Shown here: one piece after another, positions 1 through 13,825 of the stretch | Layout: each line of letters opens with the position of its first letter | How positions within the stretch are numbered: the first letter of the stretch is position 1 | Source of the DNA: Fructobacillus fructosus KCTC 3544 | Lineage (GTDB): Bacteria; Bacillota; Bacilli; Lactobacillales; Lactobacillaceae | DNA: 52,982 bases | Reading direction: 5' to 3' | Assembly: GCF_001438695.1 (NCBI RefSeq) | Contig: NZ_JQBH01000008.1 | Coordinates: forward strand, 34,354 to 87,335 | Notes under the pieces: generated by a model | What the model was told of the DNA's origin: nothing | Seen by the model: the letters and a program-made list of their open reading frames with translations, nothing else | Database searches by the model: none | Position numbers and translations under genes: made by a program

Positions 1-5
1 ATTGA

Positions 6-30: not shown

Positions 31-38
31 ATTGCAAT

Positions 39-62
39 AAAAAAACGCCATAACTTATGACG
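39..62 (-). terminator. Terminator of the leftward zinc-ribbon gene
   Basis: Read on the minus strand, the arms CGTCAT and ATGGCG enclose AAGTT and are followed by seven T. The stem overlaps the stop codon of the gene ending at 55. Confidence 0.5.
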
Positions 63-273: not shown

Positions 274-314
274 TAACTGATACCTCGTTTACTTTCTAAG
301 GCTTAGTGTACTAT

Positions 315-357
315 AAAAAATACCCAAGTCTCAATAAAGAAACATGGGTATTTTTTT
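315..357. terminator. Bidirectional terminator between two leftward genes
   Basis: The arms AAATACCCA and TGGGTATTT enclose a loop of about 17 nt, with A and T tracts on either side. On the minus strand it ends the gene at 374-556. Confidence 0.6.
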
Positions 358-373
358 CAGTTTGTTAAAATAA

Positions 374-556: not shown

Positions 557-685
557 GGGCATTTCCTCTTTTCAGTTTTTCTAAAGTCAGTATACACCTA
601 AATAAAAATAGTAGATGGTTAAAAGATAGTTATTCTAGTAATCCTGTTGAAATGGCAGTAAAATAATGTCAAAGGAGAAACTACT

Positions 686-1063
686 ATGATTAAAGTTTCC
701 GAAGCATACAAGGTGATTGATTCATTTGAAAACCCACTAAACAAGCAGGAAGAGTTTAGCAACAAAGAAAACTTTCATGTTAAGAATAATTTTATTGAGT
801 ATCATAACCAAAAGGAACACTGGCTTGCTTGGTTGGACTCAAAAGCGCCCACAGCGGACTTTAAGGACGTTTACGTGTATATTCGCTGTGCTCCCATGTT
901 GAGTTACTTAGCGGACGGTTTGGGGCTTGATACGGACGATTTTGTTACTTACATTCAGCACGTCAAAGGGATTAACAATTCTAATGCTGTTGTTGAGTCA
1001 CGTATGTTTCGTGAAGCCTTTCCGTATTCCGTAATCGAAGAAGCCATGAAAAAGAAAATGTAA
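686..1063 (+). CDS. Hypothetical protein, 125 aa
   Basis: A soluble acidic protein with no recognised family. It begins with a predicted helix (VSEAYKVIDSF) and has a more conserved-looking C-terminal half containing YIRCAPMLSYLADGLG and an acidic stretch LDTDDF. The start has a strong AAAGGAG site 8 nt upstream. A terminator follows directly at 1068-1096, so it is monocistronic. It is the only rightward gene left of the satellite repressor. It could be accessory cargo; nothing in it points to a virion or replication role. Confidence 0.6.
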   Translation: MIKVSEAYKVIDSFENPLNKQEEFSNKENFHVKNNFIEYHNQKEHWLAWLDSKAPTADFKDVYVYIRCAPMLSYLADGLGLDTDDFVTYIQHVKGINNSNAVVESRMFREAFPYSVIEEAMKKKM

Positions 1064-1067
1064 TCGA

Positions 1068-1096
1068 AGGGGTGGTGATTTGCCACCTCTTTTTTG
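1068..1096 (+). terminator. Terminator of the 125-aa ORF
   Basis: AGGGGTGG and CCACCTCT arms (one wobble pair) with a short loop are followed by TTTTTT. Confidence 0.65.
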
Positions 1097-1102
1097 TTAC
1101 AT

Positions 1103-1126
1103 AAAGAAAAGCCCACCATGGTGGCC
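1103..1126 (-). terminator. Weak terminator of the GNAT gene
   Basis: A palindrome CCACCATGGTGG sits just downstream of the leftward GNAT gene, followed on the minus strand by a T-rich run. The usable stem is short, so the call is weak. Confidence 0.35.
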
Positions 1127-1153
1127 GACTTGTTAATTAGTATTGCTAAGCAT

Positions 1154-1693
1154 TTACTTTTGTTTTGCTAACCAGTCTGTCTGAAAGATAGCATAGCAAT
1201 CAATGTTTACCCACTTTCCTTCGTAAAATGCCTCATCTTTGAGAGTGGCCTCTTTGACAAAACCAGCTTTATTATACGCCTTGACAGCTCCAATATTAAA
1301 TGGGTAAACCGATAACTTCACTTTATGCATGTTAAGGTTATTGAAAGCGTAATCCAAAATCAAATTGAGTGTCTCTTGACCATATCCCTTGGCACGGTCT
1401 TCCTGTTTTGGAAAGCCAATACCAAGTTCACAAGAATGATTCCGAATATTGAAATCGAATAAGCTAACAAAACCAATTAAGCTATCGTCGATGACCTTAC
1501 GCACTGTAAATTCGACAAATTCATTACTCTTGGATGCTTTACGAAAAATACTTTCCCAATCTTGTGCCGTCAATGGGTGGATCATATCCATTGACAGTGG
1601 ATTAACAAAATCATTATCCCATTGCCAGCTTGCGAAGTTTTCTCCGTCTGAATCGTGGTAATGTGACAATTTGACGTTTTCACCTATGAACAT
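1154..1693 (-). CDS. GNAT N-acetyltransferase, RimJ/RimL type, 179 aa
   Basis: Full-length GNAT fold in the order expected: an N-terminal substrate segment, the strand-turn LIGFVSLFDFN, the acetyl-CoA loop in EDRAKGYGQETL (the R/Q-x-x-G-x-G/A motif, about residues 99-110), and the C-terminal N-x-G-A-x-x-x-Y-x-K-x-G-F motif (NIGAVKAYNKAGF). These enzymes acetylate protein N-termini, amino groups of antibiotics or small metabolites; the substrate cannot be read from sequence. The start is followed by a normal GNAT N-terminus. It lies beside the satellite repressor on the same strand but with its own space of 129 bp, and is the best-defined candidate for island cargo. Confidence 0.8.
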   Translation of the reverse strand: MFIGENVKLSHYHDSDGENFASWQWDNDFVNPLSMDMIHPLTAQDWESIFRKASKSNEFVEFTVRKVIDDSLIGFVSLFDFNIRNHSCELGIGFPKQEDRAKGYGQETLNLILDYAFNNLNMHKVKLSVYPFNIGAVKAYNKAGFVKEATLKDEAFYEGKWVNIDCYAIFQTDWLAKQK

Positions 1694-1807
1694 ATTAATC
1701 TCCCCTAATCTAATGTTTTTTTAATATATCGTATTTGTAAACGATTGTAACACAATCTGAACAACCGTACCTGAAAGTACGCCTGTGTAATCAGATAAAT
1801 AGACATA

Positions 1808-1839
1808 ATAAAAACCCCTGACCTAGTCGTCGGAGTTTT
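1808..1839 (-). terminator. Terminator of the satellite repressor gene
   Basis: On the minus strand AAAACTCC-GAC pairs with GTC-AGGGGTTTT around a 6-nt loop containing the stop codon, then continues into T-rich sequence. Confidence 0.6.
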
Positions 1840-2449
1840 TTTTGTTTTGTTGTTCTTCTGCTAGCGCAGTTTTAGTAATGATATTAATACTTTCATTTTT
1901 CAATTTATTTGATATTTCTTTCAATAATTTATTATGTTCTAAACTTTTATTAGAAGCTACGTAAACTAAATTATCAATAATTGTTAGCAATTGTGACCTC
2001 AAACTAATATCACTGATTTGTTCATTAAAATTAAGTTCTGTTTCTGTTGACTCCTTATTTAATGTATTTAGGTAAATAAGAATTGGGGTAAGTTGCTCTG
2101 ACTTTATGCGGTCTTGTCTGGCTTGCCATTCTCTGTTTAATTGTTGTCCTCCGTTTTCATCAAAGCGCGAAAGAAGTTTATCTAATTCGCTTTGATCAAT
2201 TACAGGAATTTCTTTATTTTCATTTTGACTTGAGAATATTCCGTCCATTGCATGACGATAAGGGCTTGTACCCTGCAAATAAGCAACATCTACGTTGAAA
2301 AAGTCCGCGAGTTTTTGCCATGTTGCTAGTTTGGGTTCACGTTCGTTTCTTTCGTAAAGTGAAATAGCTTGGGTTGAAATACCCAAGTAGTCCGCAAGTT
2401 CACCTTGGGCTATATGTTTATTTTTTCTTAATTCTTTAATTCTATTCAT
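1823..2449 (-). CDS. XRE-family repressor, likely satellite master repressor, 208 aa
   Basis: Residues 1-60 form a helix-turn-helix of the XRE type (RIKELRKNKHIAQGELADYL, then GISTQAISLYERNEREP, with LATWQKLADFFNVDVAYLQG). The C-terminal 140 residues are helical and polar and are not an S24 peptidase domain, so RecA-driven self-cleavage is not expected. That fits satellite repressors (Stl-like), which are lifted by a helper-phage protein rather than by SOS; this is inference from the missing domain. It is transcribed away from the Cro-like gene at 2599 across a 149-bp control region with repeated TTTTGTTG motifs. Its own -10 (TATAAT on the minus strand) lies close to the start. Confidence 0.85.
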   Translation of the reverse strand: MNRIKELRKNKHIAQGELADYLGISTQAISLYERNEREPKLATWQKLADFFNVDVAYLQGTSPYRHAMDGIFSSQNENKEIPVIDQSELDKLLSRFDENGGQQLNREWQARQDRIKSEQLTPILIYLNTLNKESTETELNFNEQISDISLRSQLLTIIDNLVYVASNKSLEHNKLLKEISNKLKNESINIITKTALAEEQQNKKNSDD

Positions 2450-2480
2450 GGCTTAATTATAAATTAAAAATAACTAATAA

Positions 2481-2563
2481 CAACAAAATGATTATATTTC
2501 TATCTAAAATTAAACTTTTTGTTGATTTATATTGATGACGATGCTATATTTATTTTGTTGATT
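2481..2563. promoter_or_regulatory. Divergent control region of the satellite: promoter plus repeated operator motif
   Basis: A rightward promoter is visible as TTGATT (2522-2527), 17 nt, TATATT (2545-2550). The 11-mer TTTTGTTGATT occurs at 2517-2527, over the -35, and again at 2553-2563, just past the -10. A reverse-strand copy of the core (CAACAAAA, 2481-2488) lies toward the repressor gene, and a degenerate copy (ATTGTTGAATT) is at 2570-2580. The layout fits operators for the XRE repressor that control both directions. Confidence 0.55.
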
Positions 2564-2598
2564 AAACAAATTGTTGAATTTTTATAGGAGGCGAACAA

Positions 2599-2799
2599 TT
2601 GCCAGTAATTAGTAACGATATGGCCAAGGCCATCAAAAGACAACGGGGCGAACTTAATTTAAAAGTGAGTGATCTAGCAGAGCAGACAAACTTGTCACGC
2701 TTTACCTTGTACCGTGTTCTAAATAGTACAGGCGAATACGTGACAAACAAAACCTATAATTCACTAAATGAATGGTTATTGAAGGAGGAAACAAAATGA
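2599..2799 (+). CDS. Cro-like helix-turn-helix regulator, 66 aa
   Basis: A compact XRE-type DNA-binding domain (MAKAIKRQRGELNLKVSDLA, then EQTNLSRFTLYRVL) fills most of the protein. I use the TTG at 2599: AGGAGG lies 7 nt upstream, whereas no ATG has such a site. It is the first gene rightward of the divergent promoter, opposite the repressor, the position of Cro/Str-type early regulators. The next ORF begins inside its stop codon (ATGA overlap), so the early genes are translationally coupled. Confidence 0.75.
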   Translation: MPVISNDMAKAIKRQRGELNLKVSDLAEQTNLSRFTLYRVLNSTGEYVTNKTYNSLNEWLLKEETK

Positions 2800-2894
2800 T
2801 GGCATGGATATTTCAATTCATAGGATTGTTGACTGTTATAGGTGGCGCATTTGTCACCGGACTTACGATTGGAGCGGAACTGAATGAAAAATGA
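2796..2894 (+). CDS. Membrane peptide, 32 aa
   Basis: A short ORF whose ATG overlaps the stop of the Cro-like gene, with GGAGG 7-8 nt upstream. One hydrophobic segment (FIGLLTVIGGAFVTGLTIG) spans most of it, with a short charged tail. Its stop region overlaps the start of the next ORF. No family can be assigned; the coupling and ribosome site support translation. Confidence 0.5.
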   Translation: MMAWIFQFIGLLTVIGGAFVTGLTIGAELNEK

Positions 2895-2991
2895 CACAAA
2901 AAAAGCCCTTGAACGAAAGTTTGGCGACCGAGTTCAGGGACTGAATAAAGATATTCAACAAGATTATATCATTTTGTCGAGTGAAGGTTAA
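2884..2991 (+). CDS. Hypothetical small protein, 35 aa
   Basis: A charged 35-residue ORF overlapping the 32-aa membrane peptide by 11 nt in another frame. Composition is Lys/Asp/Gln-rich with no motif recognised. No clear ribosome site is seen beyond GGAGCGG about 9 nt upstream. It fills the gap before the helicase gene, which begins 18 nt further on. Confidence is limited by length. Confidence 0.4.
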   Translation: MKNDTKKALERKFGDRVQGLNKDIQQDYIILSSEG

Positions 2992-3009
2992 TAGGAAAGG
3001 AGGTTTAGT

Positions 3010-4353
3010 TTGACAGAAGAAAAAAAGTTACCGCCCTTTATTTACTTAGATGATAAAGACAAGGAAAAGGTTGATCAGCATAAAGTTGTTGAGATTATTT
3101 TAGACAAAACCAAATTTTTCAATACAACAAAACATTTAGCTGGCTATTATTACAATGGTCAGTATTGGGAACAACTAAAAACTCGTGCCGTCCGTGATAC
3201 GTTTTTAAAAAACTTTACTAGTCGGTTATTGAAAGATTATGTTACCTCTAAGTTACTTCGTGACATTTTGGAATTAGTTTTAGCTAGGTCTTTAGATGAC
3301 CAGAAGGCCTTAAATTTTGAAAAACGAAAGTCATTCGCGTCTTTCAAAAACACAGCGGTTGATGGGGACTCAATGGAGTTTGTTCCGAATAGCCCATACC
3401 TTTATTTATTAGGTGGTTTTGATTTTGAAATTAAAAAAGGAGATTGTGACAAAACAAAGGCATTATTTGAGTCAATTTTAGGTGAAAACAGTCAATTTAT
3501 GATTGAGTACGTTGGTTCAATGTTTCATCGAACCTATCGACCATTTCAATATATGGTCATCATACAAGGTAAAGCCGGTTCAGGTAAGTCTTATCTTGTC
3601 GAGTTAATTCGTAATGTGCTTGGTAAAGATATGACAACTAGTTTATCTTTGGAGCAAATCTCGCAAGACAAGTTTATGACAGCCAACCTTCTAGGATCGT
3701 ATGCCAACATCAAAAGTGATTTGAACAATGATTTTATCCCAACGTTTGAAGTTATCAATAACTTGACCGGTTCTGACTCTCTTCAAGTTCAGTTTAAGGG
3801 AGAAAACAGTTTCGCTTTTGTTAATCATGCGAAATTACTTTTTACTGCTAACGAAGCCCCATCAATTAAGGTGAATGAAGGAATTCGTCGACGGGTTAAA
3901 ATCCTCAACTCTAAAGCACCAAAGCATGTTGTCGAAAAAAACGAAGAGACAGATTATTCAAAATATATGGAAGAACGTTCAGCATTTGTGTACTTTGCCA
4001 TGTCTTCATACATGAAGGCAAAACAGATTGGAGATATGAAAATAACACCAGACATTGAAAACACGACAAAAGAATGGTTTGTTAAAGGCGATGTTGTAGA
4101 AAACTGGGCTAATGAACACTTACAAAGTGATGAAAATATAAATCAAAGAAAAGACTTTATCTATACCATGTTTTCTCAAGATTTAATTTATGATGGAGAA
4201 AAAATTACAACCACTAGGCAAAAATTTTATAGGCGACTAGAAGAAATAGGATATACCTTGAGTAAGTCGAGGTCTTCAACATCAGGAAATGATGACACAT
4301 ATGACAAAGGAACACCTGCTAATAGAATTATGGGATTTAAGTATGTTCCATAA
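3010..4353 (+). CDS. D5/P4-type phage primase-helicase (superfamily 3 helicase), 447 aa
   Basis: The protein matches the C-terminal half of P4-family phage/plasmid primases: a D5_N-like region to about residue 160, a Walker A motif GKAGSGKS (187-194), an acidic Walker B-like segment around SYANIKSDLNNDF, the sensor-type motif LLFTANEAPSI, an arginine cluster R293-R295, and a C-terminal winged-helix-like region. The primase catalytic domain found in longer members is absent, so this is probably a helicase/initiator. The TTG start at 3010 has AAAGGAGG 5-6 nt upstream. The 3' end already contains the first GTTCCA repeat of the origin-like array that follows, which suggests that it binds there (inference from satellite and plasmid systems with this layout). 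Confidence 0.85.
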   Translation: MTEEKKLPPFIYLDDKDKEKVDQHKVVEIILDKTKFFNTTKHLAGYYYNGQYWEQLKTRAVRDTFLKNFTSRLLKDYVTSKLLRDILELVLARSLDDQKALNFEKRKSFASFKNTAVDGDSMEFVPNSPYLYLLGGFDFEIKKGDCDKTKALFESILGENSQFMIEYVGSMFHRTYRPFQYMVIIQGKAGSGKSYLVELIRNVLGKDMTTSLSLEQISQDKFMTANLLGSYANIKSDLNNDFIPTFEVINNLTGSDSLQVQFKGENSFAFVNHAKLLFTANEAPSIKVNEGIRRRVKILNSKAPKHVVEKNEETDYSKYMEERSAFVYFAMSSYMKAKQIGDMKITPDIENTTKEWFVKGDVVENWANEHLQSDENINQRKDFIYTMFSQDLIYDGEKITTTRQKFYRRLEEIGYTLSKSRSSTSGNDDTYDKGTPANRIMGFKYVP

Positions 4354-4583
4354 AAACTGAATATGTTCCAGAAATGTTCCGGGCTTTTACGTTGGCACTA
4401 CTGGTTTGTTCCAGATGTTCCATAAATTATTAAGTTATAACGTATAGAAAAAATAAATAAGAATAAATATATATATAGTGAGTCACACTTTTTTGGAACT
4501 TTCGGAACAACCGTTGATATATAAGCATTTCTGTTGGAACATTCTTGGAACAAAACCGGAACAATGCGTATATAACCGGAACA
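4345..4583. other. Candidate satellite replication origin: two opposed iteron arrays around an AT-rich core
   Basis: Five GTTCC motifs (4345, 4365, 4376, 4408, 4417) lie left of an AT-rich stretch (4423-4494). Six motifs in the opposite orientation, GGAAC (4495, 4504, 4536, 4547, 4558, 4578), lie right of it. Several spacings are 9 to 11 bp, about one helical turn, and one is 20. The region is non-coding apart from its first motif and directly follows the helicase gene. Known precedent: SaPI origins have iterons on both sides of an AT-rich segment, bound by the island's Rep helicase. Confidence 0.65.
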
Positions 4584-4610
4584 CTAACACTACACAAAGG
4601 GGAAATAACC

Positions 4611-4751
4611 ATGAACCAATCAATTAAACAATTAAACTCACTATTTGATGAACCTGTATTTGTAGAAGAGGGTAAAGACTTAAGGTTAGCAACACCGGAT
4701 GCTATGAAACGATTGAAAGAGTTAGCAATGAAAATGGGGTGCAAGTCATGA
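4611..4751 (+). CDS. Hypothetical protein, 46 aa
   Basis: A small soluble protein (begins MNQSIKQLNSLFDEP, ends in a basic helix RLKELAMKMGCKS). An in-frame upstream start at 4545 exists, but I use the ATG at 4611 because AAAGGGG lies 9 nt before it and the upstream part would run through the iterons. It overlaps the next gene by 4 nt (ATGA). No family recognised; it is the first gene after the candidate origin. Confidence 0.55.
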   Translation: MNQSIKQLNSLFDEPVFVEEGKDLRLATPDAMKRLKELAMKMGCKS

Positions 4752-4891
4752 ACAAGCTGGACAATTTAGACATGTTGGAAATCAAGGCAACAATTGAAAA
4801 GGAATTAGTCAACCAGACACGATGGATTATTGGTTCGCAAATTGTAACGGTAATTATCGTAATGATCATCATGAAACTGTCTAGGGGGTAG
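4748..4891 (+). CDS. Small membrane-anchored protein, 47 aa
   Basis: An acidic helical N-terminus (NKLDNLDMLEIKATIEKELV) is followed by one membrane segment (WIIGSQIVTVIIVMIIM) and a short basic tail, so it is probably a C-tail or N-in anchor protein. The start overlaps the previous stop, and the next gene begins 2 nt after its stop. No family recognised. Confidence 0.5.
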   Translation: MNKLDNLDMLEIKATIEKELVNQTRWIIGSQIVTVIIVMIIMKLSRG

Positions 4892-4893
4892 CC

Positions 4894-5304
4894 ATGGCTG
4901 ATGAAGTAGACCGTAAGTTTAAGATGTATTTTTCTGGGATTTGGCAACATAACCTAGACTGGCGACACTTTGAGTTAGACCACCAACGAGCGCCAACTGA
5001 TGACAATATTGGTGGTGGCAGGTTGCAGAATGTAAACGTGGCTAAGAACGCTGTAGAGTCTAAAGTAGCCCGTAAGATAGATGACCCCATCGTTCATGAC
5101 TTGACGATGCGGATTGAGTCAATGGAACATTTTTTGCAGATACTATCAGACCGTGACATCAAGATGTTAGAGTTGCGATTTAAGAAGAACCCGGATAAGT
5201 GGGACATTGTCGAGTCTAAGTTGTTTCGGTCAGCAAGGCGTTTAAGTGCCGACCTAAAAAGAATTAAGGCAGAGTACCGAAACGGTATTTATTGGATAGA
5301 TTAA
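4894..5304 (+). CDS. Late-transcription-activator-like phage protein (ArpU/RinA type), 136 aa
   Basis: The C-terminal 60 residues (ILSDRDIKMLELRFKKN, WDIVESKLFRSARRLSADLKRI) look like a sigma-region-4/helix-turn-helix unit. The protein sits just before the packaging genes, as phage late activators of the ArpU/RinA group do. The N-terminal half is aromatic and His/Trp-rich (FSGIWQHNLDWRHFELDHQR) with no clear motif. The ATG start is preceded by AGGGGG. If the assignment holds, it would switch on the HNH-to-connector operon from the intergenic promoter region at 5582-5696. Family assignment is by size, position and C-terminal pattern only. Confidence 0.5.
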   Translation: MADEVDRKFKMYFSGIWQHNLDWRHFELDHQRAPTDDNIGGGRLQNVNVAKNAVESKVARKIDDPIVHDLTMRIESMEHFLQILSDRDIKMLELRFKKNPDKWDIVESKLFRSARRLSADLKRIKAEYRNGIYWID

Positions 5305-5317
5305 AAGGAGAAGATAC

Positions 5318-5581
5318 ATGAAACAAGAAGAGAAGTTTACTGACCTTGAATTGATGCAACAAGCAGTGATCCAAAAGTTACAGGAAGATAAAATTGAGAT
5401 GGCTCATGATTGTCAACGACATTTTACATTGTCACAGACACTGGCTAAGTTGTTTGGGTTGCTTGGAACAAACGTTCCTAATGTGATACGTGGAGACTAT
5501 ACAACACACCCAGTATCAGAAGAGGAACGCAAGCGAATTAAGCGTGAAATTAATGAAGGGTTTAAAGAAGACATTATCTAG
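5318..5581 (+). CDS. Hypothetical protein, 87 aa
   Basis: A charged helical protein with an acidic start (KQEEKFTDLELMQQAVIQKL) and a central segment HFTLSQTLAKLFGLLGTNVPNVI that might form a helix-turn-helix, followed by a basic/acidic tail. It begins 13 nt after the activator-like gene with a good AAAGGAG site, so the two are cotranscribed. No family recognised. It is the last gene before the 115-bp gap that precedes the packaging operon. Confidence 0.55.
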   Translation: MKQEEKFTDLELMQQAVIQKLQEDKIEMAHDCQRHFTLSQTLAKLFGLLGTNVPNVIRGDYTTHPVSEEERKRIKREINEGFKEDII

Positions 5582-5696
5582 CCTGTGGATAACTAAAAGC
5601 CTGTTGACAGTGTCCTTTTCTCGTCCCTTTAACAGCCCGTTTAACCCATAGAAACATGGCATAATTGTAGTATGGAATGATAAGCGGAGGTACGTA
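5582..5696 (+). promoter_or_regulatory. Probable late promoter region before the packaging operon
   Basis: This 115-bp gap holds a consensus -35 TTGACA (5604-5609) without a good -10 at 17 nt, and further on CATAAT (5660-5665) without a good -35. A promoter that needs an activator would look like this; the upstream ArpU/RinA-like protein is a candidate. Confidence 0.35.
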
Positions 5697-6197
5697 ATGA
5701 GATTACATCGATGTGCCGAAGTTGGTTGTCGTGAGTTGATTAAGTTAGGACATGATTATTGTGACCAACATTATCAGACAAGAATGTCTGCCTTTGATAA
5801 GAAACGTAAGCGAGACCAAGAGTTAAGTAGTCAGACCTTACGAGGACAACATGAACGTTATCGTTACTTCAAGAAATACAACGAAGAGGTTCGTCCAGAG
5901 TTAGGTCATGAGTTTTATCAGTCTAAAGAATGGGAAAAGATTAGTTTATATCTCAAGCAACGTGACATGTACACAGACGCTGTTGATGGTCGAGTGTATG
6001 ACCAAGGCAATTTAATTGCTGATCACATCGTTCCTCGTCGTTTGTTGAAGACGAAAGCCGAACAGTTGGACATGTCGAACCTATGGCTACTATCTCGCTC
6101 TCATCACAGCCACAAGACGGCTATTGAACAAAAGCTATCAGACAGTCAGCTCAAACACGTTAATCGTGAATGGTGGATAAAAGTATTGAAGGATTGA
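5697..6197 (+). CDS. HNH endonuclease, packaging-associated, 166 aa
   Basis: The HNH core is complete: D109-H110 (ADHIVPRR), N128 (SNLWLL) and H137 (SRSHHSHK). An N-terminal Cys/His cluster (C6, C11, C22, H25) looks like a small zinc finger. In HK97-like cos phages and in capsid-forming islands an HNH nuclease next to the terminase genes is needed for genome cutting at packaging; that role is inferred here from position. It has a GGAGG site 6 nt before the ATG. A strong terminator overlaps its stop codon, so TerS transcription must come partly from read-through or a second promoter. Confidence 0.9.
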   Translation: MRLHRCAEVGCRELIKLGHDYCDQHYQTRMSAFDKKRKRDQELSSQTLRGQHERYRYFKKYNEEVRPELGHEFYQSKEWEKISLYLKQRDMYTDAVDGRVYDQGNLIADHIVPRRLLKTKAEQLDMSNLWLLSRSHHSHKTAIEQKLSDSQLKHVNREWWIKVLKD

Positions 6198-6216
6198 CTC
6201 GGTCAGTCCTTTTTTT
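6190..6216 (+). terminator. Terminator after HNH gene
   Basis: A 10-bp stem AAGGATTGAC / GTCAGTCCTT (one wobble) with loop TCG runs into six or more T and overlaps the HNH stop codon. Confidence 0.75.
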
Positions 6217-6343
6217 ATTTGATACCCCCCGCCGTTTACGTTCGTCAGGGGAGCACATACCAGGGCTGCCTTCCTCTTTAAAACAAACAATTATTTTTTC
6301 GTTTTTGGAGGGCTGACCAATCAGATTAGAAAGGAGGTATACA
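6217..6343. other. HNH-TerS intergenic, candidate cos region
   Basis: The 127-bp gap between HNH and TerS holds a GC-rich block (CCCCCCGCCG, 6225-6234) in otherwise AT-rich sequence, followed by GGGGAGC and CAGGGCTGCC. cos phages with HNH and a P27-type TerS commonly have cos at this place. No direct proof of cleavage is possible from sequence. An AAAGGAGG site near its end serves TerS. Confidence 0.4.
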
Positions 6344-6820
6344 ATGCCAAGAAAAGCAAAAATTACAACTTCTGACAGCGATAGAGCCTATCAACGTCAA
6401 CGAACAGAAGCCTTGAAAGAAGCTAACTCAGAAATGGCCAAGCTATCAGAAAAACCACCTCTTCATTTAAAGGGAGTGGCTAATCAATTGTGGGCAACGC
6501 TTGTTCCAGAGTTGAACAAGTTGGGATACATTACTAGTTCTGATAACTCGACTGTTGAAGCTTTTTGTATTAATTACAGTGTCATGCGTGAAGCTTACGA
6601 TAGTATCAAAGAAGTAGGTGCTATCTATGAAAATCAAGGTCGATATTATAAAAACCCAGCTACTGCTGTATTGAACGATGCAACAGGTAAGGTCAAGTCC
6701 TTAGGTGGAGAATTAGGATTAAGTCCAAGTTCTCGGGCAACCTTGATTGAGCGAGCGAACGATGGTGACTCATCCTTAACTGGTGATGATCTAGTCAAAA
6801 TGTTTGGTGATAGCCAATGA
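6344..6820 (+). CDS. Terminase small subunit, P27 family, 158 aa
   Basis: The pattern is that of P27-family small terminases: a basic N-terminus, PPLHLKGVANQLWATLVPELNKLGYI, then the helical core SSDNSTVEAFCINYSVMREAYDSI, and KNPATAVLNDATGKVKSLGGELGLSPSSRATL near the end, the most conserved part of the family. It recognises the packaging site and delivers DNA to TerL. It is nearly full length for the family. It ends in ATGA, overlapping TerL by 4 nt. A dedicated TerS means the element selects its own DNA rather than relying on the helper's packaging. Confidence 0.93.
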   Translation: MPRKAKITTSDSDRAYQRQRTEALKEANSEMAKLSEKPPLHLKGVANQLWATLVPELNKLGYITSSDNSTVEAFCINYSVMREAYDSIKEVGAIYENQGRYYKNPATAVLNDATGKVKSLGGELGLSPSSRATLIERANDGDSSLTGDDLVKMFGDSQ

Positions 6821-8652
6821 TTGAAAAATATCAAGATGTTATCAAGGAATACGGATTAGAAGAACCAACGATTCATTACTGTGTGGATGTTCTTAATGGA
6901 AAAATCATTGCTGGAGAGAAAATTAAGTTAGCCTGTGAACGGCATTTGTCGGATTTACAACGAGTTAAAAGTGACCCAACGTTTCAATATATTTATGACT
7001 CCGAACGAACACAGCGAGTAATTAAGTTTAGTAGCTTGCTTGTTGATTTGGAAAGCCGTGAGCCCTTCAAAATAAGCCCGTATGAGTCTTTTATAGTTGG
7101 GCTACTGGAAGGTTGGGTCGAGCCTCAAATGCACGGTAAGCGTTTTGATAGGGCAATTATTTCAATGTCCCGTGCAAATGGTAAGACTGCCATTATGGCG
7201 TTAATTAGTTTGTACAACTTCCTGTTTGGTCAACCTAAAACAAATCGCCAATTGGCGGTAGCAAGTGCAGATACGGCACACGCTGATGCGTTGTTTAAGT
7301 ACATGTCGAGCCAATGGGCAAACTTAGCAGATGGAACGTTCTCAAAGATGGCCAAGCAGTGGGGAATTGAATATAACCAACGTGAAATGCGAATTAAAAG
7401 CCAGTCAACGACCATGAGAAAACTAAGTGCTTCATCCAGTACCACTAGTGACGGAATTGGTCACTTTAGTTATGCGGTTGTCGACGAATACCATTTGTTT
7501 AAAGACCGGTCGTTTATTAATTCGATTACATCAGGTCAAGCATTCTTGCCGGGGTCACAAACTATTTTCATCAGTACCAGTGGGACAGATGTTAGAAGTC
7601 CAATGTATGCCGATTACAAACGTTATAGTTCATTCCTTAGTGAAAGAACATGGCAGAAGATAGATAATATTTTGTTCCTTGCTTGGGAACAAGATAGCGA
7701 TGATGAGGCCTTTGGAAATCCTGATTTATGGCAAAAATCGAATCCTCTTTTTGAATTAGCTAGTAAAAAACAGTCAGCGATTCCCAAACTAACAGCAGAG
7801 CGAGATGAACTTAATTCTCAAGGTCGTTTACCTGATTTTTTGGTAAAGAACATGAACCGTTGGCAAAATGCCAAAGAGAACGCCTTTTTACCTGTTGATT
7901 TACTAAACCAAGCGATTATATCAGACTTTGATATGGCTGGTAGAGACGTTTATATTGGTTTTGATTATAGCCAAACAAACGATGATACAGCTCTTGCTTT
8001 TGTATTCCCATATGCTGATGAAAACGGTAACCAGAAATACCATTTATATCAACATTCTTTTATTCCACTAGCCAAACTTGGGACAATTGAGGCAAAAGAA
8101 CAGCGGGACGGTATTAATTACCGTGATGTTGAAAGTAAAGGGTTTGCCACGATTACACGAGACAGGTTCGGATTAATTGACGAAGATGAGGTGTTTAACT
8201 TCATGTTGTCATTTATCGAAAGGTACGATCTCAACGTAAAGGCCATTCTGTACGACCAATGGGGCGCTGGAAAGTTTATTAGACGACTAGATGAGGTCAA
8301 AAACGAATATTTAATCATACCGGTTCGTCAAGGTATCAAATCGTTAAATGAACCAACGAAGTTTTTGCAGACATCATTTGTTAAAAATCAGATAACCATG
8401 TTTGACGATAGCGCTATGTTTGGAGCATTGGCCAATGCAGTCATTGTTGAAGATAATAACGGTATCAAGATTGATAAACATACTAATAGCGCAAAAATCG
8501 ATATTGTCGATGCTGTAATCAACGCTTTATATGAAGGTATGTGGTATTTTACGCAATTTAGCAATGCACCAGAAGATAATAGCAAAAGCCCGTTTGTTGG
8601 CATGTCCCAAGAAGAAATTAACGATTATTTTACGAAAGAGTTTTCATTTTAG
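6817..8652 (+). CDS. Terminase large subunit, 611 aa
   Basis: Complete ATPase and nuclease domains. The Walker A is SRANGKT (118-124), and the Walker B is AVVDE with D223-E224. The nuclease acidic residues are in IGFDYS (D383), LYDQWG (D480) and KIDIVDAV (D562/D565). Full length for the YmfN/HK97-type family. It pumps DNA into the prohead and cuts it. It is coupled to TerS by a 4-nt overlap and followed 13 nt later by the DUF1056-like membrane gene. No frameshift or lost catalytic residue is seen, so the motor should work. Confidence 0.95.
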   Translation: MIEKYQDVIKEYGLEEPTIHYCVDVLNGKIIAGEKIKLACERHLSDLQRVKSDPTFQYIYDSERTQRVIKFSSLLVDLESREPFKISPYESFIVGLLEGWVEPQMHGKRFDRAIISMSRANGKTAIMALISLYNFLFGQPKTNRQLAVASADTAHADALFKYMSSQWANLADGTFSKMAKQWGIEYNQREMRIKSQSTTMRKLSASSSTTSDGIGHFSYAVVDEYHLFKDRSFINSITSGQAFLPGSQTIFISTSGTDVRSPMYADYKRYSSFLSERTWQKIDNILFLAWEQDSDDEAFGNPDLWQKSNPLFELASKKQSAIPKLTAERDELNSQGRLPDFLVKNMNRWQNAKENAFLPVDLLNQAIISDFDMAGRDVYIGFDYSQTNDDTALAFVFPYADENGNQKYHLYQHSFIPLAKLGTIEAKEQRDGINYRDVESKGFATITRDRFGLIDEDEVFNFMLSFIERYDLNVKAILYDQWGAGKFIRRLDEVKNEYLIIPVRQGIKSLNEPTKFLQTSFVKNQITMFDDSAMFGALANAVIVEDNNGIKIDKHTNSAKIDIVDAVINALYEGMWYFTQFSNAPEDNSKSPFVGMSQEEINDYFTKEFSF

Positions 8653-8665
8653 AAAGGAGTGTAAT

Positions 8666-8830
8666 ATGCAAAGTTTAGGTAAGTACTTACCATTTATCTT
8701 GATTGTATTAGGTATGCTTGCCATTTCCTATAGTGCGATGATGATTTCAATGGCCTTAGGTTGGCTGGTAGTTGGTTTGAGTTTATGTACGGTTGCTTAT
8801 ATTCTTTCTCCTAAAGGAGGAAAAGTATGA
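8666..8830 (+). CDS. DUF1056-like small membrane protein, 54 aa
   Basis: Two membrane segments (FILIVLGMLAISYSAMMI and ALGWLVVGLSLCTVAYIL) and a short polar tail. The ATG at 8666 has AAAGGAG 6-7 nt upstream. A small two-helix protein between TerL and portal is typical of Lactobacillales siphophages (DUF1056); its role is not known. The portal start lies inside its stop (ATGA overlap). Confidence 0.65.
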   Translation: MQSLGKYLPFILIVLGMLAISYSAMMISMALGWLVVGLSLCTVAYILSPKGGKV

Positions 8831-9900
8831 GTCTAAAAAATCCATTTGAAAGACGGCAGGTAATTACAACCAGTAGTTACTTGCCTTTTATTATGAGCAG
8901 TTCAGGAACATCAATTGTCCCTAATGAATTAATTGGGGCAGAACGTGCTTTGAAGAACAGTGATTTGTACAGTGTCACGAGCCTGATTAGTGCTGATGTA
9001 GCCGGTTCTAGTTTTGTTGGTAATGATAAAAAGGCGTTGTCACTATTAAATAAACCAAGTCAATTGACTAATCGTTATAACTTTTGGCAGACAATGGTTT
9101 TAGAGTTGCTATTGTCAGGTAATGCTTTTGCCATTATTGGCAAAAATGAGTTGCGATATGTTCCTAGTCAGTCCGTTGTAATTGATTTAACAGACGATAA
9201 GTTAACTTATCAAGTGAACCCATTTGGTGACTACCAAGGTGGTAACTATTCGTCCGATGAGGTCTTACATTTTAAAATCATGACCTATGGCATGAATGGG
9301 CAAGAATTGGTAGGACATAGCCCATTAGAAAGCTTGACCAGTGAAATTAGTCAGCAAGAACGGGCTAATCGTTTATCTTTGGCAACACTAGCACAAGCTA
9401 TTAATCCAACGTCCGTTATTAAAGTTCCAGATGCAGTATTGAGTCCCGAAGCAAAGGACAATGTCCGTAAAGAGTTTGAAAAAGCAAACACTGGTAATAA
9501 TGTTGGTCGCAGTCTTGTATTAGATCAAAGCGCAGATTTTCAAACTATTTCAATCAATGCAGATGTGGCTAAGTTCCTAAACAATGCGACTTATCAACGT
9601 AGTCAGATTTCTAAGGCTTTCGGTGTTCCCGATAGCTATTTGAACGGTCAAGGTGACCAGCAAAGCAACTTAGAGATGATTCAAAGTATGTATGTCAACG
9701 GTCTTAATCGTTATATCGAGCCTATCGTGAGTGAAGTACGGGCCAAGTTTAGCCCTGATATCAATCTAGACATGAGTAGTATTTTGGATTATTCAAACGC
9801 TATTTTTAAGCAGGACGTATTGAACTTTGTTGATAAACAGATTTTAACTGCCGAGCAGGCACAAAAGATTTTAATTGATAAGGGGGTAATTACTTTATGA
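8827..9900 (+). CDS. HK97-family portal protein, 357 aa
   Basis: The full-length portal pattern of the HK97 family: an N-terminal segment with SDLYSVTSLISADVAGSSF, then NFWQTMVLELLLSGNAFAII, the stem/clip part DEVLHFKIMTYGMNGQ and HSPLESL, and the C-terminal AFGVPDSYLNGQGDQQSNLEM segment before a final helical part. Portal forms the dodecamer through which DNA enters and to which connectors attach. It overlaps the protease start by 4 nt, and an RBS GGAGG lies inside the upstream gene. Confidence 0.95.
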   Translation: MSLKNPFERRQVITTSSYLPFIMSSSGTSIVPNELIGAERALKNSDLYSVTSLISADVAGSSFVGNDKKALSLLNKPSQLTNRYNFWQTMVLELLLSGNAFAIIGKNELRYVPSQSVVIDLTDDKLTYQVNPFGDYQGGNYSSDEVLHFKIMTYGMNGQELVGHSPLESLTSEISQQERANRLSLATLAQAINPTSVIKVPDAVLSPEAKDNVRKEFEKANTGNNVGRSLVLDQSADFQTISINADVAKFLNNATYQRSQISKAFGVPDSYLNGQGDQQSNLEMIQSMYVNGLNRYIEPIVSEVRAKFSPDINLDMSSILDYSNAIFKQDVLNFVDKQILTAEQAQKILIDKGVITL

Positions 9901-10472
9901 AAAATAAAGAAATTCGCAACTTGTCACTTTCAGAAGTGCAGTACCGGAATAGCGATAATCAAAACTTTGTCGGGGTTATCTCTGGTTATGCAGTGGTCTT
10001 TAATAAGGCTAGTCAAAACCTAGGTGGATTTGTTGAATACATTGAACCAACGGCTTTTGATGGTGTTGATATGTCCGATGTAGTCGCTTTGTATGATCAT
10101 GATTTCGCTAATGTATTGGGCAGAACATCTGCCGATACGCTAAAACTAACCATTGATGAACAAGGTTTGTATTTCGAGTTAAATATCCCAGATACAACTG
10201 TTGGACGGGACGTTTATACCAACATCCGAGCAGGTAACCTTCAAGGTATGAGCTTTGGTTTCACGGTTGTTAGTGATAGTTGGCAAAACGGAAGTGATGG
10301 CGTAGCCATTCGACAAGTTGACTCAATTGGACAACTTTTTGAAGTCTCTGTCGTCACCATGCCGGCATACCAGGATACAAACGTTGAGGCTATTCGGTCG
10401 TTAAGAATGGTTGCTGATAAGCAAAAGATGTTGTTATTGCTAGATGTATATGAAAAGGAGAATGCAGAATGA
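9897..10472 (+). CDS. HK97-family prohead protease, 191 aa
   Basis: Recognisable by GYAVVFNKAS, VALYDHDFANVLGRT (catalytic His68) and NLQGMSFGFTV (catalytic Ser119), the usual His...Ser order of the family. It should remove the scaffold-like delta domain of the capsid protein during maturation. Length is normal. It overlaps portal and capsid by 4 nt on both sides. Confidence 0.93.
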   Translation: MKNKEIRNLSLSEVQYRNSDNQNFVGVISGYAVVFNKASQNLGGFVEYIEPTAFDGVDMSDVVALYDHDFANVLGRTSADTLKLTIDEQGLYFELNIPDTTVGRDVYTNIRAGNLQGMSFGFTVVSDSWQNGSDGVAIRQVDSIGQLFEVSVVTMPAYQDTNVEAIRSLRMVADKQKMLLLLDVYEKENAE

Positions 10473-11590
10473 AAACGTCAGAAATTGAAGGACAAATTAA
10501 GTCCTTGAAGAAACAGGAAGCAGAAAAAATTAATGAGGTTCGCACATTGGCAAACAGTGATCAGTCAGATGTGGCTGATGTACAGGCTGGAATGAAGGAA
10601 GTAGAAGAATTGCGCAGTCAATTGGCTAATGCTAAGAAAGAACTAGAAACGGTTCAACGTGCAAAAGAGCTACTTGATGATGAAGCAAAAACAGAAGAAA
10701 AAAAGGAGTCCGAAGACATGAAAATTAACCCTAACCAAGAACAAGAAACTGCAGAAGTACGTGATTTTATCCATTACCTAAAGACTGGTGAAAAGCGTGA
10801 TAACGGAATGACAACAGTAGATGCCGGTGTTGTTATCCCAAAGGAAATTTTGAACGTACAAAAAGTACCAACTGACAATCGAAACTTGGCCTCATTGGTA
10901 AACCGAGTAATGGTTTCATCTGGTATGGGAACATTGCCAATTCTGCAAAAGAACACGGCACGCTTGACGACTGCCGAAGAACGAGCAGAAAATCCAGAAA
11001 TTACTAAGGCTATTTTGAAGAACGTTGATTATAAGGCACTCACGTATCGTGGCGCTTTGCCTTTGTCTATGGAAATGATTCAAGATGCACCTAATCTAAA
11101 GGAATTGTTGAACACTTATGTACAAGAAGCCAAGGAATTGACGGAACAGTACCAAATTGGTCAAGTTTTGCAGACTGCAACGCCTGTTAAGGCAGGGTCA
11201 GCCGATGAGTTGAAGACGGCTTACAATACTGGGCTGGCTAACTATAACCGCCAATGGGTTGTGACAGAGTCATTTTACAATGCAATCGATTTGTTGAAGG
11301 ACGCTAACGGTCGTTATCTGTTGCAAGATTCGATCTCTTCTGCAACTGGTAAGTCATTGTTTGGTGCAAATGTAACGGTTGTATCTGATGATGTTCTGGG
11401 CGGTGGAGCAAAGGGCTTTGTTGGTGACCCTAAGGCCTTTGTTCTTGAGGCTTTGCGTTCTGATGTGTCAGTAGAGTGGGATCACAACGAAAACTATGAA
11501 CACATTCTTGCTGTTGCTTTGCGTGCTGACTTTAAGCCAGCAGATACAAACGCCGGTAAGTTTGTTTCATTTGGCGAAACAGGTAAGTAA
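10469..11590 (+). CDS. HK97-type major capsid protein with delta domain, 373 aa
   Basis: Residues 1 to about 85 are a charged coiled coil (SEIEGQIKSLKKQEAEKINE and onward), the delta domain used as internal scaffold. The HK97 fold follows from about residue 115 (GVVIPKEIL, then RNLASLVNRVMVSSGMGTLP) to the end (ALRADFKPADTNAGKFVSF). The matching protease is just upstream. The capsid belongs to the element itself, so it can build its own shell; whether the head is smaller than a phage head cannot be read from sequence. Two tandem hairpins follow the stop. Confidence 0.93.
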   Translation: MKTSEIEGQIKSLKKQEAEKINEVRTLANSDQSDVADVQAGMKEVEELRSQLANAKKELETVQRAKELLDDEAKTEEKKESEDMKINPNQEQETAEVRDFIHYLKTGEKRDNGMTTVDAGVVIPKEILNVQKVPTDNRNLASLVNRVMVSSGMGTLPILQKNTARLTTAEERAENPEITKAILKNVDYKALTYRGALPLSMEMIQDAPNLKELLNTYVQEAKELTEQYQIGQVLQTATPVKAGSADELKTAYNTGLANYNRQWVVTESFYNAIDLLKDANGRYLLQDSISSATGKSLFGANVTVVSDDVLGGGAKGFVGDPKAFVLEALRSDVSVEWDHNENYEHILAVALRADFKPADTNAGKFVSFGETGK

Positions 11591-11633
11591 TTGTCCATAA
11601 GTGGACAACATAAACATTCCCCAGTAGTGGGGA
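11591..11633 (+). other. Two tandem RNA hairpins after the capsid gene
   Basis: TTGTCC/GGACAA around a 6-nt loop (11591-11608) and CCCC/GGGG around AGTAGT (11619-11632, extended by a T-A pair). Neither has a T tract, so they are not classic terminators. They may protect the 3' end of the abundant capsid message or lower expression of the connector genes. Confidence 0.5.
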
Positions 11634-11658
11634 GTACATATATTGAAGGAGAACAGCA

Positions 11659-11961
11659 ATGAATATTGTCACTAAAGAGGAATTAGCTAAAGAATTGAAT
11701 ATCGACTTAACACTAGATGAAATGAGCACAATAACATCATTAATTGAGTCTGCTAAGGCTTTGATTAGTTCAGCAATTAAATTAAACGTCACTGATGAAC
11801 AGTTATTAAAAATTAATGGTGAGCTATATAACCGGCTGATTAAGACATTGGCAACGAGCTTATACTATGACCGAGAGCTAACGTCAGGATACTCAAAAGG
11901 AACGATGATTATGTTGACGAATTTACGTTCAGAGGCGTTGGGGGTTAGTGATGAAGTATAA
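11659..11961 (+). CDS. Head-tail connector (gp6-like) protein, 100 aa
   Basis: An all-helical 100-residue protein with the pattern of phage DNA-packaging/connector proteins of the HK97 gp6 kind: an N-terminal ITSLIESAKALISSAI helix and a C-terminal LATSLYYDREL...TMIMLTNLRSEAL segment (QLRG-like end, here TNLRSEA). It should form the ring under the portal. RBS AAGGAG is 8 nt upstream. It overlaps the next gene. Present in both tailed phages and capsid-forming islands. Confidence 0.8.
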   Translation: MNIVTKEELAKELNIDLTLDEMSTITSLIESAKALISSAIKLNVTDEQLLKINGELYNRLIKTLATSLYYDRELTSGYSKGTMIMLTNLRSEALGVSDEV

Positions 11962-12298
11962 ACCAAGTGATTTTAATAAGATTGTCCGTTTGGGGTCTAT
12001 CGAGAGTGTTCCTAATGAAATCAATGGAAATCTTATGGAAACGTTTGTGGAAGACATGAAGCTACACTATGCACCAAAGACACGAACGATGACACAACAG
12101 TATACGCTGTTAGGAACGAAGCTAGAAGACACCATTTTAATTGTCATTAGACACAATTCTGCTGTACAGGATAAGATGCTGGCACAACTCCCAGACAATA
12201 AATACTATGAAATTGTGGGTATTAGTCCTGACGAATCGAACAACATTATTAAATATGACATTGTCACATTGAAATTAAGCCAAAAAGGAGTGGAGTGA
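11951..12298 (+). CDS. Head closure / stopper protein (SPP1 gp16-like), 115 aa
   Basis: A small beta-rich protein matching phage head-closure proteins: KYKPSDFNKIVRLGS at the start, an internal ETFVEDMKLHYAPKTRTMTQQYTLLGT strand region, DTILIVIRHNSAVQDKMLAQL, and a C-terminal YEIVGISPDESNNIIKYDIVTLKL, where the last strands form the interface to the tail. A GTG at 11948 also fits; the ATG at 11951 is preferred. It is the last virion gene: no tail-completion, tail-tube or tape-measure gene follows. In the capsid-island model this surface would accept a helper tail. Confidence 0.78.
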   Translation: MKYKPSDFNKIVRLGSIESVPNEINGNLMETFVEDMKLHYAPKTRTMTQQYTLLGTKLEDTILIVIRHNSAVQDKMLAQLPDNKYYEIVGISPDESNNIIKYDIVTLKLSQKGVE

Positions 12299-12492
12299 TG
12301 GAAAAACTGGAAGTAATGGAATGGCCGAAGTGGTTACGTCGTAATCAAGCCCACCGTTATTTAAGCGTTGCGGATAACACGTTTATGAAAAACTATGTAA
12401 AGAATGGAAAAGTTAAAGCTTATCCAACTGCTCATGGTATCCGTTATGATCGAGATGAAATTGATGAAGCCGTTCGTCACTATTACGACTAA
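12298..12492 (+). CDS. Excisionase-like winged-helix DNA-binding protein, 64 aa
   Basis: A MerR/excisionase-type wHTH pattern: MEWPKWLRRNQAHRYLSVADNTFMKNYVK, then VKAYPTAHGIRYDRDEIDEAV. Such proteins bend att DNA and direct a tyrosine integrase to excise. I use the ATG at 12298, 4-5 nt after GGAGTG; a GTG 3 nt earlier is possible. It overlaps the head-closure stop by 1 nt and lies 108 nt before the integrase, so excision is tied to the end of the late operon rather than to the early genes. Confidence 0.7.
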   Translation: MEKLEVMEWPKWLRRNQAHRYLSVADNTFMKNYVKNGKVKAYPTAHGIRYDRDEIDEAVRHYYD

Positions 12493-12525
12493 TGTTAGTC
12501 AGAAACTAAATATTGTGGAATAATG

Positions 12526-12560
12526 AAAGCGTGTTAGTTTGAAAAAACCACGCTTTTTTA
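12526..12560 (+). terminator. Terminator of the late operon before the integrase
   Basis: AAAGCGTG and CACGCTTT arms flank a 15-nt loop and continue into T6. Integrase would therefore rely on its own promoter or on read-through. Confidence 0.65.
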
Positions 12561-12600
12561 TTTTGACTTTTTACTCAATCATCAGAAGGAAGAATAAAAA

Positions 12601-13758
12601 ATGCAAATCAAAGAAGTTGATAGCAGAAGTGGTAAAACGTATGAAGTAGTTGGATATTTAGGCCGAAATAAAGACGGTACTAAAGCAAGAGCAAAGAAGA
12701 GGGGATTTGACACAAAGAGAAGCGCAGAGCAATGGTTTAATAATCAAAAATTACTGTTTGAAAATGGCGAGAGTCGTTACAATAAAAAAACAACCCCCGA
12801 TGTCATGACCATTCAGGAGTTGTATGATATGTGGCTAGAAACCTACCAGTACACTGTAGAAGAAAGTACACTTGGTAAAACGATGAAAACAATTGAATTA
12901 CACATACTTCCCAAGTGGGGTAAGGTGCTCGTAAGTGACATCAAGCCAATTGATTTACAACGCTATATTAACACATTGCAGGGTCAGTTGTTGCACTATC
13001 GAAAAGTGGTCGCTCATTTGAAAAGGTTGGTTAGATTAGCCGTGAGAATGGATATGATACCAGTTGACCCATTCACTAAAGTTGAAATGCCAAAGCAACG
13101 AAGGAACAAAAATAAACCAAAGCAGTTTATGGATGTTGATGAATTTAAGGCTTTTATTGATGTATTAGATAATCAATATTGTAATGTAAACCGACAGGCT
13201 TATGTCTTGCTAAGGTTGGCCGCATTCACAGGTATGAGAACAGAAGAATTACTAGCCTTGCAATGGAAACACATTGACTTTAATGGCGGATATATCCACA
13301 TTGTACAAGCGCTCGGAAGAGGCCTTAGAGGTGGAACGTACTTGAAGGAACCGAAAAGCGACAGTAGTAAGAGGACAATAAAAGTTGATAGTGGTATGAT
13401 GTCCGTACTCGCTGATTTCTATGATAATAGTTCCAATAAAACAGAAGATGATTTTGTCTTTAATGTTCATGGAGATAAATTAAACATAGGCCGTCCGAAT
13501 AAGTGGATGCATGATGTCAGCGAGCAGTATGGCGTGGCTGTTGGGTTATCTATGCACAAGTTACGCCATACTTGGGCAACGTTGGCTTTAGATCAAGGAG
13601 CCAGTATCAAACAGGTACAAACTTATTTGGGTCACGCTGATGTCTCAATGACATTGAATGTGTACAGTGATATTACGAAGCGAGCAAGTGATGAGACGGG
13701 TAATGTTCTCTCAAAACTAACATTAGAGGAACACAAAAAAGGGCACAAAGTGCCCTAG
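12601..13758 (+). CDS. int: Tyrosine recombinase (satellite integrase), 385 aa
   Basis: An N-terminal arm-binding region (YEVVGYLGRNKDGTKARAKK, GFDTKRSAEQWF) is followed by a core-binding SAM-like domain (TIQELYDMWLETYQYTVEES) and the catalytic domain with R213 (GMRTEELL), H319-x-x-R322 (HKLRH), H345 (GHADVS) and the nucleophile Y355. All catalytic residues are present. It differs clearly in sequence from the second integrase at 44878, so the two elements use different sites. It ends a few tens of bases from the thioredoxin-like gene, placing attR there. ATG start with GGAAG upstream. Confidence 0.95.
   Translation: MQIKEVDSRSGKTYEVVGYLGRNKDGTKARAKKRGFDTKRSAEQWFNNQKLLFENGESRYNKKTTPDVMTIQELYDMWLETYQYTVEESTLGKTMKTIELHILPKWGKVLVSDIKPIDLQRYINTLQGQLLHYRKVVAHLKRLVRLAVRMDMIPVDPFTKVEMPKQRRNKNKPKQFMDVDEFKAFIDVLDNQYCNVNRQAYVLLRLAAFTGMRTEELLALQWKHIDFNGGYIHIVQALGRGLRGGTYLKEPKSDSSKRTIKVDSGMMSVLADFYDNSSNKTEDDFVFNVHGDKLNIGRPNKWMHDVSEQYGVAVGLSMHKLRHTWATLALDQGASIKQVQTYLGHADVSMTLNVYSDITKRASDETGNVLSKLTLEEHKKGHKVP
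13735..13757 (-). terminator. Terminator of the thioredoxin-like gene, overlapping integrase 3' end
   Basis: GGGCAC and GTGCCC enclose AAA, and on the minus strand six T follow. It lies inside the last codons of the integrase gene, so the island carries the terminator used by the host gene at this end. Confidence 0.6.
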
Positions 13759-13825
13759 ATATAGGGGCGATGCTTAGTAAATGATTCCTAAGGAATCCAC
13801 CCCTCTTTCAGTGTATATGGTTGAT

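Follow-up and report, generated by a model that had tools for sequence, protein, structure and literature searches.

The DNA analysed in this work, called the window, is a stretch of 52,982 nucleotides from Fructobacillus fructosus KCTC 3544 (contig NZ_JQBH01000008.1, positions 34,354 to 87,335). Its left end carries an integrated, sharply bounded 14.3-kb element that encodes its own integrase, an Xis-like protein, a repressor and a replication primase. A complete packaging-and-head cassette in this element ends at the gene for the head-closure protein (stopper) Hc1, beyond which lie xis and int. The element is very probably a capsid-forming satellite of the type described as capsid-forming phage-inducible chromosomal islands (cf-PICIs). 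Among its relatives the stopper gene has been swapped, unlike in the tailed loci used as controls.

Insertion site and gene content of the island

The insertion site was compared in 13 genomes of the genus, that of KCTC 3544 included. In all 12 others the gene found here to the right of the integrase, which we take to be thioredoxin-like, lies within 1.5 kb of the homologue of the gene at the left of the island (a gene whose name is likewise presumed from its sequence). In these uninterrupted sites the short gap reads by eye as a bidirectional terminator; in the window genome the island separates the two arms of such a hairpin, and rejoining the flanks without the island restored a predicted hairpin of −26.9 kcal/mol. 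The span between the att cores, from window −548 to 13783-13797, is 14,331 bp. No exact repeat of 13 bp or more was shared by the right junction and the left contig, and the att core was recovered only via the empty site. The inner DNA next to attL is by eye similar to that of two related islands with an integrase of the same type, L044 and L045, whose insertion sites are tRNA genes (3' ends of tRNA-Ser and tRNA-Glu) and which have direct repeats of 18-19 bp spaced 13,894 and 14,558 bp apart. The G+C content is 37.9 % in window 1-13795 and 45.1 % in 14001-44000.

The reading made from the sequence alone had placed the element at 1823-13758. The gene set named there does lie in this interval, but the element is longer: since attL is at window −548, the island also includes four cargo open reading frames (ORFs, 55-1693) and, immediately outside the window on its left, 192 consecutive bases of N. 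As in cf-PICIs, integration takes place at a specific att site and through an integrase encoded by the element. The empty site and the att cores, together with the sister satellites using the same integrase that are described below, constitute positive evidence for a satellite. At about position 34110 of the contig (C44), within the island and just before the N run, a tRNA-Asn-like sequence and a promoter-like stretch were seen by eye.

Gene families were assigned with PHROGs and Pfam, and the features are as follows (window coordinates, strand, description).

contig position 33805 (window −548): attL core GATTCCTTAGGAATC, one base different from the attR core
1..13797, no strand: part of the element inside the window, delimited by the empty site in 12/12 genus genomes and the att cores; the left end lies outside, at window −548
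55..273, minus: cargo ORF, 72 aa, weak PADLOC match to PDC-M14A (1e-4)
374..562, minus: cargo ORF, 62 aa, no family above the cut-off; by eye presumably CsbD-like
686..1063, plus: cargo ORF, 125 aa, no family found
1154..1693, minus: GNAT acetyltransferase cargo (PF13302 4e-15)
1823..2449, minus: master repressor with helix-turn-helix (HTH) domain (PF01381 7e-16 and other HTH families)
2599..2799, plus: Cro-like regulator (phrog_11187)
3010..4353, plus: replication primase/helicase (phrog_864 4e-41; PF19263/DUF5906)
4894..5304, plus: Alt-like late transcription activator (phrog_2198 1e-5; no Pfam family)
5697..6197, plus: packaging HNH endonuclease (phrog_144 2e-25)
6198..6343, no strand: predicted cos region, the 146-bp gap between HNH and TerS (position deduced)
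6344..6820, plus: TerS (phrog_83 2e-32; PF05119)
6817..8652, plus: TerL (phrog_9 4e-120; PF20441, PF03354)
8666..8830, plus: small membrane protein in the TerL-portal interval (phrog_502, scanned within a longer frame)
8827..9900, plus: portal (phrog_12 7e-62; PF04860)
9897..10472, plus: head maturation protease (phrog_80 2e-54; PF04586)
10469..11590, plus: HK97-type major capsid protein (phrog_10 1e-51; PF05065)
11659..11961, plus: head-tail adaptor Ad1 (phrog_40; PF05135)
11948..12298, plus: head closure/stopper Hc1, the tail-facing head protein (phrog_25 4e-21; PF05521)
12295..12492, plus: HTH protein, excisionase-like (phrog_668 1e-7, phrog_66 5e-4)
12601..13758, plus: tyrosine integrase (phrog_1 9e-68; PF00589)
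13783..13797, no strand: attR core GATTCCTAAGGAATC

Every gene named in the sequence-only reading, from repressor to integrase, is intact and was matched in PHROGs or Pfam. The two connectors recognised there are the adaptor and the stopper, the latter with a profile match to a PDB stopper protein (1.5e-31), and the excisionase-like gene is present too, but its identification is based on weak HTH matches (1e-7 to 5e-4). The claim that tail and lysis genes are missing agrees with the family search, in which none was recognised among the 19 proteins scanned. The perfect 4-bp overlaps held for five of the ten gene junctions between HNH and the integrase; at one of the others the genes overlap by 14 bp, and at four they lie 10-146 bp apart. 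The set that defines cf-PICIs (capsid, protease, portal, connectors, TerL, TerS and HNH) is present, and the element also has the replication module of its own that is expected of them.

The small membrane protein occupies the same position as in the phages bIL309 and Sfi21. The HNH-TerS gap aligned poorly over 13 rows, with conserved edges; as a comparison for the cos position, the Sfi21 record begins just upstream of TerS. In the repressor only HTH families were matched and no S24 protease domain at 0.01, a missing domain match being no proof. PICI repressors are not known to be cleaved in the SOS response.

Conservation of the tail-less order

TerL of the island was matched in 151 of 397 family genomes, with identities mostly of 30-43 % among the matches listed, apart from the relatives named here. 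Two genomes of one other genus encode TerL 85 % identical to that of the island and have the complete tail-less order including xis and int, although the primase of one of them (L044) is only 24 % identical to that of the window. Scans of IMG/VR yielded the window element and 26 more contigs, 25 of them with TerL at 85-87 % and one (L079) in which 59 residues of TerL are 80 % identical and the portal is 79 % identical. The close relatives thus number 28, i.e. 27 with TerL of at least 85 % identity and L079. Several rows are identical or nearly so (L044/L092, L102/L103/L105 and L108/L109 in TerL; L163/L164; L012/L051), hence the counts given here are not independent.

None of the 28 close relatives matched any of 48 downstream proteins of seven tailed loci in a similarity search (E 1e-4), so by this search the absence of tail genes, as in cf-PICIs, is conserved across these relatives. 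All 20 relatives that reach past Hc1 have xis there, at a distance of no more than 45 bp in 19 of them and of 227 bp in L045, in which a 65-codon ORF lies between Hc1 and xis. The integrase is the next gene in 19/19 relatives that extend further. The remaining eight stop at contig ends in or just past the capsid gene.

The head genes of the island family are intact and under purifying selection. Head ORFs were of full length, unless cut by a contig end, in the 25 of 28 relatives analysed (the fragments L081, L082 and L096 were left out, as was L099, the window element itself). The median pairwise dN/dS, taken over pairs with dS 0.05-1.2 that are not independent of each other, was 0.06 for TerL, 0.08 for portal, 0.14 for protease, 0.15 for capsid, 0.11 for Ad1 and, for Hc1 with its 27 pairs, 0.17. 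The broken or relaxed head genes expected of a decayed prophage were not found.

Tails appear beside more distant relatives only. In loci of 73 % identity or less, Hc1 is followed by a tail-completion/HK97 gp10-type gene, tail proteins, a major tail protein and a tape measure. Matches of major-tail size and to tape measure were both present in 17 of the 20 such loci checked. As to the other three, L057 has major-tail matches and its contig ends early; L052 gave no cross-match but has a 962-codon frame, and both major tail and tape measure appear in the annotation of its relative phiMH1; L013 has no tail match. L012 and L051 look like one contig.

All 25 islands in the TerL tree formed one clade (SH-aLRT 100) against 24 other rows, and so did all 21 islands in the capsid tree (SH-aLRT 100) against 15 others. 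The 24 prophage rows of the TerL tree include L115 and L117, which have no tail matches, and L111, which is too short to be judged; none of the three alters the island clade. None of the 1844 phage records matching the window TerL reached 60 % identity, the best being bIL309 with 57.6 %, and the best plasmid match was a Weissella confusa record with 59.1 %. The conclusion drawn from the sequence, a satellite rather than a dead prophage, is borne out by these data: neither adjoining tail genes nor decay of the head genes, either of which would have spoken against it, was encountered in the close relatives.

The IMG/VR contigs L115 (2959-9757) and L117, of about 14 kb, encode HNH, TerS, TerL, portal and a protease/capsid fusion, with two short ORFs at the connector position and no recognised integrase among the proteins scanned. 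They are possibly another tail-less head-making element, perhaps plasmid-like.

The stopper gene and the integrase backbone

Sorting of the islands by Hc1 type gave groups A, B and C and a less tight set D, besides the window island. When members of different groups among A, B and C were compared (up to three per group, taken in order), Hc1 had a mean identity of only 37-50 %, in comparison to 96-98 % for TerL, 88-93 % for capsid and 92-94 % for Ad1. The values for the further genes were 86-90 % for portal and for TerS, 77-92 % for protease, 80-97 % for xis, 73-86 % for integrase and 67-72 % for HNH. Within groups (up to four members) Hc1 was 89-99 % identical in A, B and C and 67 % in D, values that are partly circular because the Hc1 tree itself defined the groups.

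The change is local. In windows of 60 bases, L100 and L044 were 78-98 % identical up to Hc1, except for one window of 23 % just after the capsid gene; identity was 30-73 % within Hc1, 55 % in one window and then 88-100 % from xis onward. L110 and L089 returned to 91-96 % in xis and dropped again near the integrase, and the comparisons with group C showed a less even recovery in xis (70-100 %). The synonymous differences in six pairs were 0.65-0.81 for Hc1, versus 0.16-0.28 for TerL and 0.17-0.33 for Ad1; in the same pairs they were 0.12-0.41 for capsid, 0.13-0.53 for xis and 0.41-0.66 for portal. Rapid divergence of the stopper in place of replacement is disfavoured, since the synonymous differences of Hc1 are also saturated; selection alone does not suffice and replacement is needed.

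Two controls were used. With Sfi21 as the query, TerL was 90-95 % identical in 133 records and 60-80 % in 109, Hc1 80-90 % in 144 and 60-80 % in 63, and Ad1 80-90 % in 198 (identity bands unpaired by record; 28-30 records per search fell below 60 %). Among 17 pairs of tailed loci with TerL above 70 %, Hc1 was at most 9 points below Ad1 where both were known, and was 81-98 % in the 7 pairs with TerL of at least 89 %. Controls at matching distance are few because only one pair reaches 96 % in TerL. No donor of the stopper was found among known tailed phages by tree or by scans, the scans of phage records having been run with the window type and type B. In the Hc1 and Ad1 trees the islands fell on one side, with weak support in both (78 and 74, respectively).

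The exchange of the stopper is most simply read as matching of the heads to the tails of different helpers. A wider proposal is put forward tentatively, at somewhat less than even chances: the family would possess a head with an interchangeable docking plug. Divergent alleles, each stable in its group, would repeatedly replace the stopper against a background of little-changed terminase, adaptor and capsid, and a single capsid lineage could thereby use the tails of different helpers. According to the same proposal, satellites of a single integrase lineage, otherwise head-less, would gain or lose the packaging-head cassette at the position between the primase and xis/int.

The second part of this proposal concerns the integrase. 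At least 25 matches to the island-type integrase (E 1e-80) were found in at least 18 of the 397 family genomes and at least 4 of 40 genera, these being lower bounds since no more than four candidates were scored per genome. Three of the 25 are capsid-forming islands (the window, G337 and G219). The other 22 were examined except for one (G112:C42), and in 21/21 of these loci TerL, portal and capsid of either the island or the prophage on contig C8 (see below) had no match. In 17 of them both the primase match and the integrase were covered, with no head gene between; L169 and L178 have 9-14 kb upstream of the integrase without a primase or head match, and in L160 and L176 the sequence is cut so close to the integrase that no call is possible. 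The window genome itself has two further copies of this integrase, on C10 (interval covered, no head gene) and C34 (cut). A tree of the integrases, built from 20 capsid-forming islands, 22 others including KJ608189, and 3 outgroups, shows two or more changes of capsid state and has head-less members on its deepest branches, a pattern that might also arise by recombination between integrase and cassette. A scan of viral contigs for the integrase confirmed only the window element, a scan shown to be insensitive by the presence in those contigs of islands with that integrase.

The record KJ608189, "Leuconostoc phage LLC-1" (UNVERIFIED, partial), comprises a tailed phage (annotated head, tail, holin and amidase) and a satellite segment at about 38040-50014. 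The segment resembles the window island in integrase (70 %; 69-83 % to other islands), xis (72 %) and primase (30 %) but differs in having no head cassette between primase and xis and in being joined to a tailed phage. The record is probably chimeric, phage and satellite DNA of a single preparation having been assembled together.

In the vicinity of these satellites, an open frame of 2601 codons lies near the integrase copy on C10 (L125:41-7846, minus strand), and homologues of the GNAT cargo (65-74 %) were noticed near satellites with the same integrase, at L161:5166-5702, L175:6037-6288 (both in reverse-strand coordinates) and L178:16685-17212.

Proposed life cycle, rival explanations and known systems

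cf-PICIs need only tails. For the island a helper phage would lift the presumably non-SOS repressor, upon which the element would excise and replicate. Its HNH, TerS and TerL would then package the element DNA from its own cos site into small heads built from its own capsid protein. The heads, closed by adaptor and stopper, would dock onto tails made by the helper, which would also provide lysis, and the type of stopper may be tuned to that helper. Helper induction, head formation and tail borrowing are inferred. The prophage resident on contig C8, whose tail genes extend from completion to tape measure with the distal ones off the contig, is no more than a candidate helper. Another tape-measure gene was seen at the end of contig C2. 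Positions 44878-52982 of the window are the start of a second prophage beside tRNA-Leu/Thr genes, with an integrase, a phrog_4-type repressor and an antirepressor; it reaches the end of the contig and carries the PADLOC candidate defence genes PDC-M24A/B.

Several observations weigh against the satellite interpretation or its stopper part. No helper was matched to the element; the C8 prophage has a different head and neck (portal phrog_64, TerL phrog_3717/phrog_2). The integrase of the window has a long branch (0.32) in its tree, and its insertion site is unusual in not being a tRNA gene. HNH (67-72 %), protease (77-92 %) and portal (synonymous 0.41-0.66) are mosaic between groups as well, the stopper being the most extreme case among them. 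Between the window island and L080 all six genes are near saturation (synonymous 0.65-0.85), and the window Hc1 is as far from set D as its Ad1 (63 and 62 %), so that the swap is visible in the relatives only. The best phage stopper is 47 % identical to that of the window and 37 % to type B, and scans of viral contigs with types A, B and C showed only islands above 40 %.

That the island is the remnant of a siphophage which lost its tail and lysis genes and is now decaying is very improbable. The head genes are indeed homologous to and collinear with those of tailed Lactobacillaceae prophages, bIL309 and Sfi21, and the element is single-copy in this genome. Against this stand the tail-less order kept in the informative close relatives, the full and selected head ORFs and the single island clade, on which grounds a dead prophage was rejected, and also the precise att ends and an integrase common to head-less satellites. 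Least probable of all is a capsid maker kept by the host, of gene-transfer-agent-like or defensive nature. Heads without tails or lysis and cargo such as the acetyltransferase would suit it, but the element has its own integrase, Xis-like protein, repressor, replication genes and HNH/TerS/TerL, its site is empty in all 12 other genus genomes compared and its relatives occupy different att sites; these are the marks of a self-packaging mobile element.

It could also be a mobile satellite whose heads mainly hinder the helper or protect the cell, transfer following another route such as packaging of the whole island in helper virions. The satellites with the same integrase and no recognised head genes, which presumably use helper heads, fit this explanation, as does the lack of an identified tail donor. 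The complete and selected self-packaging set of terminase, adaptor and stopper would, however, be superfluous, and this alternative is regarded as improbable, if slightly less so than the other two. The family offers natural replicates for the question of tail use, with TerL 96-98 % identical and the head protein expected to meet the tail sharply different. Should the stopper allele predict the helper, one gene of about 110 codons would set the choice of tail and could be read from sequence, and the head-less sisters with the same integrase may indicate how a satellite turns capsid-forming.

In comparison to siphophages of the bIL309/Sfi21 type, the order HNH-TerS-TerL-membrane protein-portal-protease-capsid-Ad1-Hc1 is collinear (HNH of Sfi21 being outside the stretch read), but both phages continue with HK97 gp10-type, tail and tape measure genes. 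According to PMC11661146, the head-associated rings end with the stopper and the tail-associated proteins begin with HK97 gp10 (tail completion), and this division between head and tail is the point at which the island cassette ends, after Hc1. The Streptomyces satellites MulchRoom and MiniFlayer likewise encode heads and packaging genes and depend on helpers; unlike the island they are actinobacterial, and they are stated to use virulent helpers and to lack significant homology to PICIs or cf-PICIs (PMC10690885).

The cf-PICIs are defined in PMC10690885 and PMC11389934 by encoding capsid, protease, portal, head-tail connectors, TerL, TerS and HNH. Three capsid clades of cf-PICIs have been published (PMC11389934), one cf-PICI was called by software in Pseudolactococcus (PMC13335696), and a co-timed study cited in PMC13345588 is quoted there for the use of diverse phage tails by cf-PICIs. 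No title or abstract in the literature searched described the present island family. Like cf-PICIs, as they are outlined in these sources, the island has major capsid protein, protease, portal, connectors, TerS, TerL and HNH without a tail, along with integrase, repressor, replication gene and a chromosomal att site. Set beside cf-PICIs by this definition only, the family stands out in that int and xis close the late operon after the stopper, that the integrase backbone also occurs without the capsid cassette and that the stopper alleles are swapped. The island is a real addition to the known cf-PICI kind, and the stopper pattern among its relatives is unusual.

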